The notes under the pieces were generated by a model. The model was not told the origin of the DNA. It ran no database searches and worked only from the letters and a program-made list of their open reading frames with translations. Below, piece by piece: positions 28,761 to 33,829 of a DNA stretch of 64,000 bases. Numbering within the stretch: position 1 is the stretch's first letter; each line of letters begins with the position of its first letter. A program made the position numbers and the translations under genes. Source of the DNA: Thermococcus profundus. Its GTDB lineage: Archaea > Methanobacteriota_B > Thermococci > Thermococcales > Thermococcaceae. The DNA lies in the NCBI RefSeq assembly GCF_002214585.1, contig NZ_CP014862.1, positions 744,001 to 808,000 on the forward strand, read 5' to 3'.

Positions 28761-28850
28761 TCTCCCACCGGTGTAAGTTGGGGGAGGAGTTTAAATGGTT
28801 GTGCCCGAGGCTTTATAAGCTCCACAACTGAGTAGAGTTAGGTGAACCAA

Positions 28851-29900
28851 ATGAAGACCGAACGCGCGAAGGAGATACTCCTTCAGCTTTTGAGAATACC
28901 CTCGCCTTCTGGAAGAGAGGACAGGGTTATGCTCCACATCATGGAGTTCCTCCACAGACTTGATTACGACGTCCACATCGAGAGCGACGGCGAGATAATA
29001 GACCTCGTTGTGAACCCAAACGCGGACCTCTTCTACGAAGTCCACGTCGATACAATACCCGTTAGGGCCGAGCCCTTCGTGAGGGGCAACATCGTCTACG
29101 GAACCGGTTCCAGCGATATAAAGGGCGGTGCAGCTGCGATTCTCTTGATGATGGAGAACCTGAAGAAGGAAGGGAAGGACCTCAACGTTGGAGTGGTTTT
29201 CGTCAGCGACGAGGAGATGGGAGGAAGGGGAAGCGCCCTCTTCATGGAGCGCTACAAGCCCAAGATGGCGGTGGTTCTCGAACCGACTGATCTGGAAGTT
29301 CACATAGCCCACGCAGGTAACATCGAGGCGTATTTTGAAGTTGATGGAAAGGAGGCCCACGGTGCCTGTCCTGAAAGCGGCGTCAACGCGATAGAGGAGA
29401 CTTACAAGATGCTCGAGGAGATGAAGAAGCTCGAACCCTTCAAGCAGAAGGGGAAGTACTTCGACCCGCACATAGGCATCCAGGAGCTCGTCTGCGAGAA
29501 CCCGGTCTACCTCATCCCGGCCCTCTGCAAGGGAAGGCTTGAGGCTAGGCTTCTGCCGGACCAGGAAGTTGAGGACATACTGGACCTCCTCGACCCGATA
29601 TTCGACGAGTACACGCTGAAGTACGAGTATACAGAGATTTGGGACGGCTACGAGCTCGATGAGGATGAGGAGATAGTCCAGCTGGCGAAGAAGGCCATGG
29701 AGAAGACCGATGTTGATGAGTTCGGCGGAATGAGGAGCTGGACAGATGCTATAAACTTCATGTACAACGGGACTAAGACCATCGTCTTCGGCCCCGGCAA
29801 TCTCGACATCTCCCACACGAAGAACGAGCACATCGACGTTAGGGACGTAGTAGCTGCAAGCGAGTTCCTAAAGGTTCTCAACGAGCTCTATGGTGAGTGA
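28851..29900 (+). CDS. M20 family metallohydrolase (ArgE/DapE-like)
   Basis: A 349-residue zinc amidohydrolase. The metal ligands are visible: EVHVDT (H-x-D), GTGSSDIKGGAAA (bridging Asp), VSDEEMGGRG (catalytic Glu and a ligand Glu), VLEPTD (Glu or Asp ligand) and SHTKNEH near the end. The dimerisation domain (about 165-280) contains KEAHGACPESGVNA. Substrates in the family include acetylornithine, succinyl-diaminopimelate and small peptides; no arg or lys genes are nearby, so the substrate is open. The ATG at 28851 follows AGGTGA; TATA-like GGCTTTATAAGC is at about 28808. Confidence 0.92.
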   Translation: MKTERAKEILLQLLRIPSPSGREDRVMLHIMEFLHRLDYDVHIESDGEIIDLVVNPNADLFYEVHVDTIPVRAEPFVRGNIVYGTGSSDIKGGAAAILLMMENLKKEGKDLNVGVVFVSDEEMGGRGSALFMERYKPKMAVVLEPTDLEVHIAHAGNIEAYFEVDGKEAHGACPESGVNAIEETYKMLEEMKKLEPFKQKGKYFDPHIGIQELVCENPVYLIPALCKGRLEARLLPDQEVEDILDLLDPIFDEYTLKYEYTEIWDGYELDEDEEIVQLAKKAMEKTDVDEFGGMRSWTDAINFMYNGTKTIVFGPGNLDISHTKNEHIDVRDVVAASEFLKVLNELYGE

Positions 29901-29921
29901 AGGCAACCCTTATTAGGACTG

Positions 29922-29948
29922 ACCCCCCACCAGTAACTGGTGGGGGGT
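29922..29948. repeat. Perfect palindrome over the RBS of the ATPase gene
   Basis: A 12-bp perfect inverted repeat with a TAA centre: ACCCCCCACCAG (29922-29933), then CTGGTGGGGGGT (29937-29948). The right arm contains the GGTGGGGGG ribosome site and ends one base before the ATG at 29950, so a hairpin in the mRNA would hide the RBS. A 19-bp direct copy (from the C run to CTGGTG) recurs right after the gene at 31015-31033. Confidence 0.85.
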
Positions 29949-29949
29949 A

Positions 29950-31014
29950 ATGCTCTTCAATCCAAAACCCAAAACAAGGAGAGACGAACTCTACGACCGC
30001 GAGGAAGAGCTCTCAATTCTGGAGGGTTCTCTCAAAAAAGGCGTTCCTCTTATCGTCCTGCTCGGCATAAGGCGCCTTGGAAAAAGCTCTCTCCTCAACG
30101 TCTCCCTCGGTGAGGTCCCGGTTAAAAGCGTCAAGATAGACGCCAGAAAGGTTTATTCCGCCTTTGGAAGCGTCCCTGGAAGCGCCCTGGCAAAGCTTAT
30201 TCTCGAAGGCTACATCAAAACTTCGCCCCGTGAGAGGGTTAAAGATGCTTTAAAGGACATCAAAGGTGTTCGCCTAGCGGGTGTTGGCCTTGAAATCCGT
30301 GTGGATAGCAGCGTAAACCTCTTCAAGGTCCTCGAGAGGATTGACTCAATGGGAGAAAGGTTCGTCATAGCCATAGACGAGGCCCAGTACCTTCGCTTTT
30401 CCCGCTCCCGCTATGCCGAGCTGATAGCGTGGGCGGTTGACGAACTCCAGAACGTCGGATTCATCCTGACCGGCTCGGAAGTCGGCCTTCTGGAGGACTT
30501 CCTCCGCCTTCACGATCCGGAATCGGCGCTCTTCGGCAGGGCCCACGTTGAGGTGAAACTCAGAAGGTTTGAGAAAAGCCAGAGCCTCGATTTTCTCAGG
30601 AGGGGCTTTGAGGAGATTGAACTCGACATAGATGAGCACGAAATTGAAGAGGCCGTTGACGAGCTCGACGGCATAGTCGGCTGGCTGACTCTCTACGGCT
30701 ACAACCGCTATCTCGGCCTTTCCCACGGCGAATCCCTCCGGAAACTGAAAGACGATGCCAGGAGGTTAATCCTCAGTGAGTTCTCAAAGCTTAAAGAGCT
30801 CTCCCCCCGCTACGGGCTCGCCATGATGGCGGTCGCCAACGGCAGACACAGATGGAAGGAGATAAAAGAGGCCGTCGAACTCCTCGAAGGCAAAAGACTG
30901 GACGACAAAAACTTCTCCAACGTCCTCAACAACCTCGTCCGCTACGGCTACCTTGAAAAAAGGATAGACGGATACTTCATACCCGACCCCCTCGTTGAGC
31001 TGGCGTTTAAGTAA
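29950..31014 (+). CDS. Archaeal AAA ATPase (PF01637-like)
   Basis: A 354-residue archaeal ATPase of the STAND-like family common in hyperthermophiles. It starts FNPKPKTRRDELYDREEELSIL. Walker A is GIRRLGKSSLL, Walker B is FVIAIDEAQYL, and sensor 1 is FILTGSEVGLL. A C-terminal winged helix is likely (about 275-354: NGRHRWKEIKEAVEL, FSNVLNNLVRYGYLEKR). Functions are unknown; members are often variable between strains. The gene is tightly framed by the palindromes at 29922-29948 and 31014-31033, and its RBS is inside the first. It stands between unrelated core genes, which hints at an inserted cassette. Confidence 0.9.
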   Translation: MLFNPKPKTRRDELYDREEELSILEGSLKKGVPLIVLLGIRRLGKSSLLNVSLGEVPVKSVKIDARKVYSAFGSVPGSALAKLILEGYIKTSPRERVKDALKDIKGVRLAGVGLEIRVDSSVNLFKVLERIDSMGERFVIAIDEAQYLRFSRSRYAELIAWAVDELQNVGFILTGSEVGLLEDFLRLHDPESALFGRAHVEVKLRRFEKSQSLDFLRRGFEEIELDIDEHEIEEAVDELDGIVGWLTLYGYNRYLGLSHGESLRKLKDDARRLILSEFSKLKELSPRYGLAMMAVANGRHRWKEIKEAVELLEGKRLDDKNFSNVLNNLVRYGYLEKRIDGYFIPDPLVELAFK

Positions 31015-31033
31015 CCCCCACCAGTAACTGGTG
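31014..31033. repeat. Second copy of the palindromic repeat
   Basis: ACCCCCACCAGTAACTGGTG begins on the last base of the ATPase stop codon. It shares 19 bases exactly with the upstream copy but loses the long right arm, so the inverted repeat here is only CACCAG/CTGGTG. It lies 13 bp from the end of the convergent helicase gene. Confidence 0.8.
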
Positions 31034-31045
31034 CCCCTTCAGAGC

Positions 31046-33829
31046 TCAGGACTCCCCGTCTTTTTCTTTGCCATTTTCCTCACCCTTCTTATCCACCCAG
31101 AAGCGCCTCGTCCTTATGAACTGCCTCTCGCGCTCCATCAGGGCGACCAGGAGTGCATCCCCCTTATACTGGGCAAGAATCCTTGCGGCAGTATCAGGTC
31201 CGGTTCCATAGCTGGCAAGAGCTAAGACAGCGTCGAAGCCGTAGGAGTCTACGAGGTCCGCAGCCTTCAGCAGCTTTCTGTAAACCCTTTCCTCCTTTCT
31301 CTCAAGCGGTCTTCCGTGCCTGACCTTATCAAGAACCGGCAGGAACTCCTCCGCGTCTATCGGGTGGGCGACGGCCAGCATCTTCGAGCCGCAGCGGGGG
31401 CACTCCCTTTTTTTGATGCTTCTAAGGCGGGCAACCTTCGTCTTCGAGTGCCAGCCGCAGTTGGTGCATACTAAAACCACCTCGTGGTCTAGGAGTCTAT
31501 TCCTAAACAGTTCAAGGATTTCGTCCCTCTCAAGCGCTCCGCTCAGAAGGAACTCTCCTCCAACGGTTACGTTCAGCTTTGCAAGCGTTGACGGCTCCCC
31601 TCTCAAAGCCGTCTTCACTCTCAGCGAGCCCCTCTTCAGCATCTCAAGAACAAGCTCTGCCTTTTTCACGTCGACTTTGTCGTGGTAGAGCTCGTTCAGG
31701 GTTTCCCTCTCTATCACCGTCCCCTCGAAGAGCCTCTCAACACGCCTTATCTTCGCGTCTCTCCGCAGAGCCCCGAAGCGCTTCGCAACGTTCAGCATCC
31801 TCCAGCGGTAGGCGTGAGAGTCTCTCAAAGCCCTAGCCACGATGAACTCGACGCTCTCCGGCTCCTGGTAGAGGTAGCGCTTGACTTCGTCGGGGTTAAG
31901 CTGGAATGGCGTCTTGAAGACTATCGCATGCGCTTGAGCCCTGACGGAGAAAACCCTTCCGTAGCGGAGGATTAGGAGTGAGTGGACTATCCTGCCTATC
32001 GCCTCGTTTGCCCTGTTGCCGAAGTCCGCGTGGATAACGAGCGCTTTCGGCGTGCTCTCCACGACTATATCGCGGTCCGTCGAGAAGGGTTCGCCCTTTA
32101 TTTCTCCGAAGGCCCTCCTGAGCTCCTCCTCGCTGAACTCAACTCCTCCAAGGAGGGAAAGCGCGTTCTTGAAGTCAAATGCCAGCTCTCTCTTTAGCCT
32201 CCCAACGGCAAAGGCGACACTGAAAGGAACCGGTATCATCTCGCCCTCCCAGCTCGGTATGGCGCTCTCAATGCTCGAGCTCTCGCGCGCCTTGATGATC
32301 TTGGCCTCGTCGTCTATCTCCAGAACTATCCAGCTGCGCCCGTTCATGACGAAGTCCATCCCTTCCTCCAGATCCATGACGAACCTCTCGTCCAGCCTTC
32401 CGATTATGTGACCGCTCCTCGCGTCGAAAACCCGCCAGGAGACCTCGTCCGGTATCGTCGAGAGGTTCTCGTAGTAGTACTGGAACGCTCCCCTCCTGAG
32501 GTAGAGCAGGCCGGTTTCCTCGTCGTAGCCGATCAGGCGGGCATCTTCGAGCACCTTGAGAGTATCGAGATAATCCTCCCAGGTTAAATCCCTGTAAACG
32601 TAGGCCCTTCTGGCTATTTCATAGGGCCTCTCTCTCGGCAATCTCTTGTATTCAACGAGCAAGCCGACGACAAAATGTGCCAGAACGTCCAGACCGCCAA
32701 TAGGCTCAACGGCCTCAAAGCGGCCTTCCAGCGCGTGCTTCGCTATGACTAGACTCTGGAGATAGTCCTCAACGTTGGAGGTTATCACGTAGGCCTCGCT
32801 GACCTCCCCAATGCGGTGCTTCGCCCTCCCGGCTCTTTGAACGAGCCTGTTAACCTGCCTCGGGCTCATGTATTGAATCACGACATCGACGTCGCCGATG
32901 TCTATGCCAAGCTCCATCGATGAAGTGCATATCAAAGCCTTTATCCTGCCTTCCTTCAGGCCCTTCTCGGCTTTAATGCGCGCTTCCCTGGAGAGCGAGC
33001 CGTGGTGGACTTCAACCGGTTTGCCCCAGGCCTTCAGCCTGTGGGCAAGGATTTCCGCGAACTGGCGCGTGTTCGTGAATATGAGGGCTTTACCGTGCCT
33101 CTCGACTATCTCCCAGAGGAGCCTCAGACGGGCGGCTATCTCCGGCGAGAGGCTCAGCTCCCGGCCGAGCTTTTCGTCTTCCTTGGTCGGAGTTGGATAG
33201 AGAACATGGAAGCGGTAGGCCTTCTTCCAGTTGGGCTTCACTATGACGTCAGCCTTCAGCCACTCCCTCACTTCCTCCTCGTTGCCGACGGTAGCGGTCA
33301 TTCCTATCCCTCTAAAGTCCGCTATCTCCTCCAGGCGCTCAAGGCCGAGGAGGAGCTGGGCGCCGCGCTTGTTATCAACGAGCTCGGCTATCTCATCCAC
33401 GATAACGAACTTGACGTTGGTCAGGTGTTTTCGGAGGGATTTGACTGTTAGAATCACGCCGAGGGTTTCCGGAGTTATTATGAGCATCTGTGGCGGGTTC
33501 TTGGTTTGTTTGGCTTTTCTGTATGCGGAGGTGTCGCCATGGCGCACCTCGACGGTTATTCCGAGTTTCTTCCCCCACCACTCGAGCCTTTCGAGGAGGT
33601 CGCGGTTGAGGGCCTTGAGTGGGGCGATGTAGAGAGCTGAAATCGGCTTTAGCCCATTCTCAAGGATTTCGTTGAAAACTGGAAGAACAGCGGCTTCAGT
33701 CTTCCCCGAACCTGTGGGGGCTATTATCAGAACACTCTTTCCGGAACTAACCTCGCGGAAAGCGTCCTGCTGGAGCCTGTTGAGCCTTCCAAAGCGCTCC
33801 TTTATGGCCTTCTTGAGGAGGGGGTGCAT
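31046..33829 (-). CDS. Lhr-family superfamily 2 helicase
   Basis: A 927-residue DEAD/H-box helicase of the Lhr (Lhr-Core) type. Motif I is APTGSGKTEAAVLP, Ia IAPLKALNRDL, II VDEIAEL, III MTATVG, then the RecA2 motifs IFTNTRQFAE, SSMELGIDIGDVDVVIQ and RLVQRAGRAKHR. The winged helix and Lhr-type C-domain follow. Near the C-terminus CTNCGWH and CPRCGSK form a zinc ribbon (about 810-845), and the tail is Lys/Glu-rich. Such helicases act on DNA or RNA:DNA hybrids; whether this is aLhr1 or aLhr2 cannot be settled here. A divergent promoter with the MFS gene lies at 33850-33885. Confidence 0.93.
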   Translation of the reverse strand: MHPLLKKAIKERFGRLNRLQQDAFREVSSGKSVLIIAPTGSGKTEAAVLPVFNEILENGLKPISALYIAPLKALNRDLLERLEWWGKKLGITVEVRHGDTSAYRKAKQTKNPPQMLIITPETLGVILTVKSLRKHLTNVKFVIVDEIAELVDNKRGAQLLLGLERLEEIADFRGIGMTATVGNEEEVREWLKADVIVKPNWKKAYRFHVLYPTPTKEDEKLGRELSLSPEIAARLRLLWEIVERHGKALIFTNTRQFAEILAHRLKAWGKPVEVHHGSLSREARIKAEKGLKEGRIKALICTSSMELGIDIGDVDVVIQYMSPRQVNRLVQRAGRAKHRIGEVSEAYVITSNVEDYLQSLVIAKHALEGRFEAVEPIGGLDVLAHFVVGLLVEYKRLPRERPYEIARRAYVYRDLTWEDYLDTLKVLEDARLIGYDEETGLLYLRRGAFQYYYENLSTIPDEVSWRVFDARSGHIIGRLDERFVMDLEEGMDFVMNGRSWIVLEIDDEAKIIKARESSSIESAIPSWEGEMIPVPFSVAFAVGRLKRELAFDFKNALSLLGGVEFSEEELRRAFGEIKGEPFSTDRDIVVESTPKALVIHADFGNRANEAIGRIVHSLLILRYGRVFSVRAQAHAIVFKTPFQLNPDEVKRYLYQEPESVEFIVARALRDSHAYRWRMLNVAKRFGALRRDAKIRRVERLFEGTVIERETLNELYHDKVDVKKAELVLEMLKRGSLRVKTALRGEPSTLAKLNVTVGGEFLLSGALERDEILELFRNRLLDHEVVLVCTNCGWHSKTKVARLRSIKKRECPRCGSKMLAVAHPIDAEEFLPVLDKVRHGRPLERKEERVYRKLLKAADLVDSYGFDAVLALASYGTGPDTAARILAQYKGDALLVALMERERQFIRTRRFWVDKKGEENGKEKDGES

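Follow-up and report, generated by a model that had tools for sequence, protein, structure and literature searches.

A PF01637 ATPase gene of Thermococcus profundus framed by two copies of its predicted operator and probably exchanged as a one-gene cassette

The stretch of DNA analysed here, referred to as the window, comprises 64,000 nucleotides of the Thermococcus profundus chromosome (G000:C1:744001-808000; this genome is G000 in our set), and all coordinates given below are positions within it. An ATPase gene of 354 codons (c5; 29950..31014, forward strand) lies between a gene encoding an M20-family peptidase on its left (c4; 28842..29900, forward strand; Pfam PF01546) and a convergent gene encoding an Lhr-type helicase on its right (c2; 31046..33829, reverse strand; DEAD, DEAD_assoc and WH_Lhr Pfam domains). 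The c5 product is a member of the PF01637 archaeal ATPase family with a C-terminal winged helix: residues 15-246 match the ATPase_2 profile with 61.4 bits against a curated cut-off of 33.2, residues 285-337 (30802..30960, forward strand) match the winged-helix profile PF21100 with 33.9 bits against a cut-off of 27, and the protein is related along its whole length to the structures 2qen (query residues 1-350) and 2fna (1-353) in the PDB. No recombinase or nuclease domain was found in the protein by Pfam profile search, and no integrase or transposase is encoded between the repeats described below, which enclose the ATPase open reading frame only, or beside them, where the peptidase and helicase genes are located.

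A TATA-like box of the ATPase gene, CTTATTAG (29909..29916, forward strand), is followed by an upstream palindrome, PAL1 (29922..29948), which we predict to be both an operator and the left border of a cassette. PAL1 reads ACCCCCCACCAGT-A-ACTGGTGGGGGGT, a perfect inverted repeat whose last base is 1 bp before the ATG at 29950. The original prediction placed its end correctly and was right that it is perfect, but the arms are 13 bp long and not 12. A second copy, PAL2 (31015..31033), is the predicted right border; it reads CCCCCACCAGTAACTGGTG and is an exact 19-bp copy of the PAL1 core, as had been claimed, although it abuts the TAA stop codon (31012-31014) and begins with the base right after it rather than on it. 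The motif GGTG, a putative ribosome-binding site that had likewise been predicted, is present in the right arm of PAL1. With up to two mismatches allowed, the 14-mer core has four matches in the window against 0.23 expected, a number reached in none of 100 shuffles, and an exact match occurs just twice in the 2.04-Mb genome, both times at this locus, and the reversed control has none. A chance repeat is ruled out by the shuffles, by the genome count and by the 543 control open reading frames described below, and a general regulatory motif is ruled out by the confinement of the core to this locus within the genome.

The core, the ATPase and the peptidase gene c4 were used as queries against 94 genomes of the family; c4 forms a conserved left border and served as the anchor for finding the locus in all species. 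The oriented locus could be read in more than 60 genomes, and 56 Thermococcus genomes with the locus were placed in a tree of flanking genes. The ATPase is present at the locus in 13 of these 56 genomes (filled sites; the count includes a truncated remnant in G053 and G042, where the locus is split over two contigs ending in the palindrome), 19 have one palindrome but lack the ATPase (empty sites), four carry a different, inverted PF01637 ATPase beside one palindrome, and no recognisable palindrome is present in the remaining 20. The expectation that strains lacking the gene would retain one copy of the repeat thus holds in 19 species, and the repeat, far from occurring only in this genome, is shared across the genus. 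The flanking-gene tree requires 12 switches between a filled and a not filled site, at least ten of them forced by the starred branches, and filled sites cluster on it no more than shuffled labels do. Wherever the context is readable, the type i ATPase (the subfamily of c5) immediately follows the M20 peptidase gene in Thermococcus, and the second palindrome copy was found in the other filled species with a readable 3' end.

The junctions were compared for three empty species, the others having been read for a single palindrome only. The empty G013 aligns with the filled G017 and G039 from both sides as far as the palindrome, and both flanks likewise meet in one palindrome when the empty G044 is compared with the filled G061 and G023, and the empty G062 with the filled G025. 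An empty site therefore consists of the left flank with the TATA box, then one palindrome, then the right flank, and the missing segment runs from the ATPase start codon through to the second palindrome copy. The position of the TATA box is conserved in filled sites and its counterpart is retained in most empty ones. The locus consequently has empty sites that are exact and keep a single flanking repeat, as expected of a mobile gene cassette.

Several individual loci depart from this layout. In G042 two contigs end inside the type i palindrome (L069 positions 1-15 and L070 position 1), which could reflect either a mixed filled and empty population or a hairpin artefact. The truncated ATPase remnant of G053 (L093:2112-2398) lies between two decaying palindromes and is an example of loss through decay rather than clean deletion. 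The inverted ATPase beside the type i palindrome (L081, L090, L096 and L098, in G041, G047, G060 and G067, respectively) is 43% identical and has, in most copies, its own palindrome CCCCATACAGTATGGGG or a variant of it near its start; the copy in G060 is broken. A further ATPase with PF01637 and DUF234 domains (L088:3367-4695 and orthologues) is variably present at the locus, and in G033 just its promoter-like sequence is retained there.

Divergence at 4-fold degenerate sites shows that the ATPase has moved without its neighbours. Between G000 and G031, the nearest filled relative of the window's ATPase, it is 0.12 in c5 as compared with 0.47 in c4 and 0.45 in c2 (P = 5e-16). The corresponding values are 0.05 in c5 against 0.34 in c4 for G061 and G042 (with c4 alone compared; P = 2e-10), and 0.05 in c5 against 0.22 in c4 and 0.17 in c2 for G017 and G039 (P = 9e-6); several other pairs have the same contrast in weaker form. 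Horizontal movement independent of the flanks, another property of mobile gene cassettes, is thus seen in synonymous divergence with P values down to 5e-16. Vertical descent in which the gene was only ever lost is ruled out by this contrast. Nor is the contrast due to a slowly evolving ATPase, since other ATPase pairs are saturated: between c5 groups, divergence at 4-fold sites is saturated to the same degree as in the flanks. The empty sister G013 differs from G017 by ~0.2 in both flanking genes, and because the ATPases of G017 and G039 differ by 0.05, less than this value, the ATPase transfer is younger than the split between G013 and G017.

The extent of the transferred tracts bears on how the gene moves. 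Between G000 and G031, the sequence enclosed by the palindromes differs by 4.9%, as against 12-21% for c4 and 12-17% to the right of PAL2; the edges of the low-divergence tract thus fall within ~30 bp of those of the cassette, and on the right side of G061 and G042 the sequence changes within a few bases of PAL2. Such tracts would suit a dedicated mobility, akin to that of a one-gene integrative element, in which the ATPase, by itself or together with a recombinase of the host, would bridge the two palindromes as attachment sites and bring about precise excision as well as insertion at empty palindromes. Presence and absence that are precise at the palindrome, empty palindromes that are unique and well preserved, and a separate site for each subfamily would suit it too. 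This explanation is nevertheless unlikely, given that the protein lacks a recombinase or nuclease domain, that the type i gene keeps to one locus in Thermococcus with no hopping seen, that no plasmid or phage copies and no relative among viral contigs were found, and that the subfamily called type v below behaves similarly with no 3' copy. Between G017 and G039 the low-divergence tract takes in ~600 bp of the left gene, an extent expected of general homologous recombination. Still more far-reaching, and quite doubtful in our judgement, is the proposal that a winged-helix AAA+ ATPase is a recombinase-free, self-framing mobile gene that uses its own operator palindrome as attachment site; if true, such an ATPase would direct insertion and excision, precise to the open reading frame, at empty palindromes specific to each subfamily, and would represent a novel class of archaeal one-gene mobile element.

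As for a vehicle, no relative of the ATPase was found in the plasmid and phage collections or in the viral-contig collection, and a plasmid, phage or viral carrier was rejected on account of this absence; an 18-mer match in four viral contigs was judged to be due to chance. Insertion at several unrelated chromosomal sites, in the manner of integrons or IS elements, was not observed where the context was readable in Thermococcus, and type i is found at other loci in Pyrococcus only, where it has no 3' copy.

The palindromes left behind in empty sites are well preserved. Their core is nearly invariant at ATPase-less sites, while synonymous sites differ by ~0.5 on average. Perfect copies account for 16 of 23 in ATPase-less sites, which is unlikely at a lineage divergence of at least 0.1 and marginal at 0.05 (P ~0.05); the test is corrected for truncation, the sites being found via similarity, and assumes independence, which is not fully true. 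Unless the lineages diverged by ~0.05, neutral decay would have left the lone palindromes less intact than they are, and this suggests very recent losses, renewal of the site through repeated gain, or a function for the single palindrome.

In nearly all subfamilies a palindrome sits between the TATA box and the start codon, and the distance between the two is 39 bp in the median over 100 relatives. Transcription in archaea usually starts ~26 bp from the TATA box. With this spacing, the median TATA position implies that the transcript is expected to begin inside the right arm, which makes a DNA operator likelier than an RNA hairpin. That a hairpin hides the ribosome-binding site and that the ATPase thereby limits its own translation, as had been suggested, is accordingly highly improbable: the complete 56-nt RNA does have a strong fold (-27.4 kcal/mol, z -4.1) and the GGTG is located in the right arm, but the left arm is probably not transcribed given the median distance of 39 bp, RNA from the expected start has an ordinary fold (z 0.2), and unrelated palindromes occupy the same DNA position in other subfamilies. 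In orthologues at other loci in Pyrococcus the same palindrome is found 5 bp before the start codon, upstream only. An autoregulatory operator would have just these properties, that is, a palindrome in the core promoter that is specific to the subfamily and accompanies the gene at other loci, and the position of the palindrome together with its dependence on the ATPase subfamily supports the operator originally proposed. The winged-helix-turn-helix domain of c5 is the presumed reader of the palindrome, and it is natural to infer that the ATPase's own winged helix may bind it. Rx1, a plant NLR modelled on Orc1/Cdc6, and IniR, a mycobacterial regulator with an ATPase domain modelled on SSO1545, have similar ATPase folds and have been reported to bind DNA (PMC4599002 and PMC5760070, respectively).

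The bracketing repeat is not confined to type i. We compared the 75 bp upstream of each gene with the 80 bp from its stop codon onward, using control open reading frames from the same loci, and found a shared repeat scoring at least 14 in 30 of 103 PF01637 genes and in none of 543 controls, whose maximum was 11. At least four subfamilies are bracketed, each by a different palindrome: CACCAGTWACTGGTG in type i, ACTTGCAGGGGTGCAAGT pairs in type ii, CTTACCCNNGGGTAAG pairs in type iii and GGACRT...CCCCATWATGGGG in type iv; in types v-viii the palindrome is upstream only. The PF01637 genes L312-L341 have no bracketing repeat, save for a self-match of coding sequence in L316. Palindrome type tracks the protein tree, with 13 changes for 10 labels as compared with 68 in shuffles, and extra changes are incurred for type i because some neighbouring c16 genes sit ~50 bp downstream of a type i palindrome. 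Empty sites whose flanks meet in palindromes were also found for two of the three further bracketed subfamilies, namely types ii (e.g. G071 against G036) and iii (e.g. G016 and G023 against G044). Four weaker type ii and iii sites (e.g. G001, G038 and G041), in which fewer bases match the filled relatives, are less certain. The contrast in divergence between gene and flanks is present in both types and is less strong. The type ii matches L231 and L236, which have no related flanks or ATPase nearby, were taken as chance.

Type v has no 3' copy. Where its ATPase is absent, the promoter and operator stay, the junction lies at the operator end in several species, and horizontal exchange of the ATPase is seen as well; since both are found without it, a second palindrome copy is dispensable for precise absence and exchange. 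The filled alleles that survive may once have had a 3' copy and lost it, or else the boundary is determined in some other way; type v is the main weakness of a model resting solely on recombination between two copies. Type v operators with no ATPase occur in L294, L300, L304 and L308 at ~position 1500, most of them keeping the TATA box, and the convergent neighbour there ends in T-rich, terminator-like sequence that is apparently missing in filled relatives. The window's genome itself encodes a type v relative outside the window (L202; G000:C1:1429184-1430242), with the operator GTATCGGTACCGATAC and no downstream copy.

Exchange in the unbracketed type v, a palindrome placed after the TATA box and before the start codon in almost every subfamily, in many with no 3' copy, and upstream-only palindromes in the Pyrococcus orthologues at other loci would all agree with a simpler explanation, in which the palindromes are autoregulatory operators and nothing more, and chance deletions between short repeats and ordinary allele exchange account for the rest, with no cassette role. 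We regard this as possible though not likely, because by itself it leaves unexplained both the recurrence of the 3' copy in four subfamilies and the frequent exactness of absence at the repeats. The associated suggestion that read-through is blocked by the 3' copy, or that a loop forms between the two copies, is similarly tentative.

As a pattern, a single-gene cassette that is framed by operators and in horizontal flux has good support. As to the mechanism, we consider it probable that the cassette is exchanged horizontally and lost precisely, most likely through ordinary host recombination. The palindrome between TATA box and start codon would be the DNA operator of an ATPase subfamily, presumably bound by the C-terminal winged helix of the ATPase, which would limit its own transcription; a second copy right after the stop codon would make the gene and its operators a one-gene cassette. 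Thermococcus species would exchange this cassette at one fixed chromosomal site, most likely via ordinary host DNA uptake and recombination on palindromes and flanks, and recombination between the two copies, a step that we infer, would delete it cleanly, leaving the promoter and one palindrome. Several sister PF01637 subfamilies are built alike at other loci, each around a distinct palindrome. The original prediction had offered mobile cassette and self-limiting operator or hairpin as two readings; the empty sites favour the cassette, the operator stands beside it as compatible rather than alternative, and the RNA hairpin is not supported.

Thermococcales carry a large and variable set of PF01637 ATPases without a settled function. 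For at least eight of the subfamilies a cognate DNA site can now be predicted, so that DNA binding by these proteins is directly testable, and the arrangement represents a repeatable route for swapping single genes at fixed chromosomal places, with the gene's own control element as border. The flux of the ATPase resembles that of defence genes, unlike that of housekeeping regulators.

In the openly licensed articles searched, we did not find a description of an ATPase gene arranged between copies of its own operator, nor, for the PF01637 family, of palindromes flanking the gene, operators specific to a subfamily or exact empty sites. The known AAA+/STAND ATPases of this family (SSO1545, PDB 2fna, and 2qen) share with c5 the PF01637 domain and the C-terminal winged helix, and the matches are whole-length. 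The candidate defence ATPases PDC-S27 of PADLOC are matched by the neighbouring PF01637 and DUF234 ATPase of the locus (E = 1.5e-40) and are similar in that the ATPase, like defence genes, is species-variable; the window's ATPase, however, matches them weakly (18.9 bits), and DUF234 was not found in it. With MITE and IS-type elements the ATPase cassette shares short repeats at both ends of the unit and presence or absence among relatives, and it differs from them in having no transposase, two repeat copies per genome, a fixed locus and a repeat placed in the promoter. Integron gene cassettes are attC-flanked single genes. In contrast to them, the ATPase cassette has neither an integrase gene nor an array, each gene subfamily has its own palindrome, and at other loci the promoter leaves with the gene; in general terms it resembles them in consisting of a single gene with a palindromic border site, in leaving the promoter in the empty site and in its precise presence or absence.
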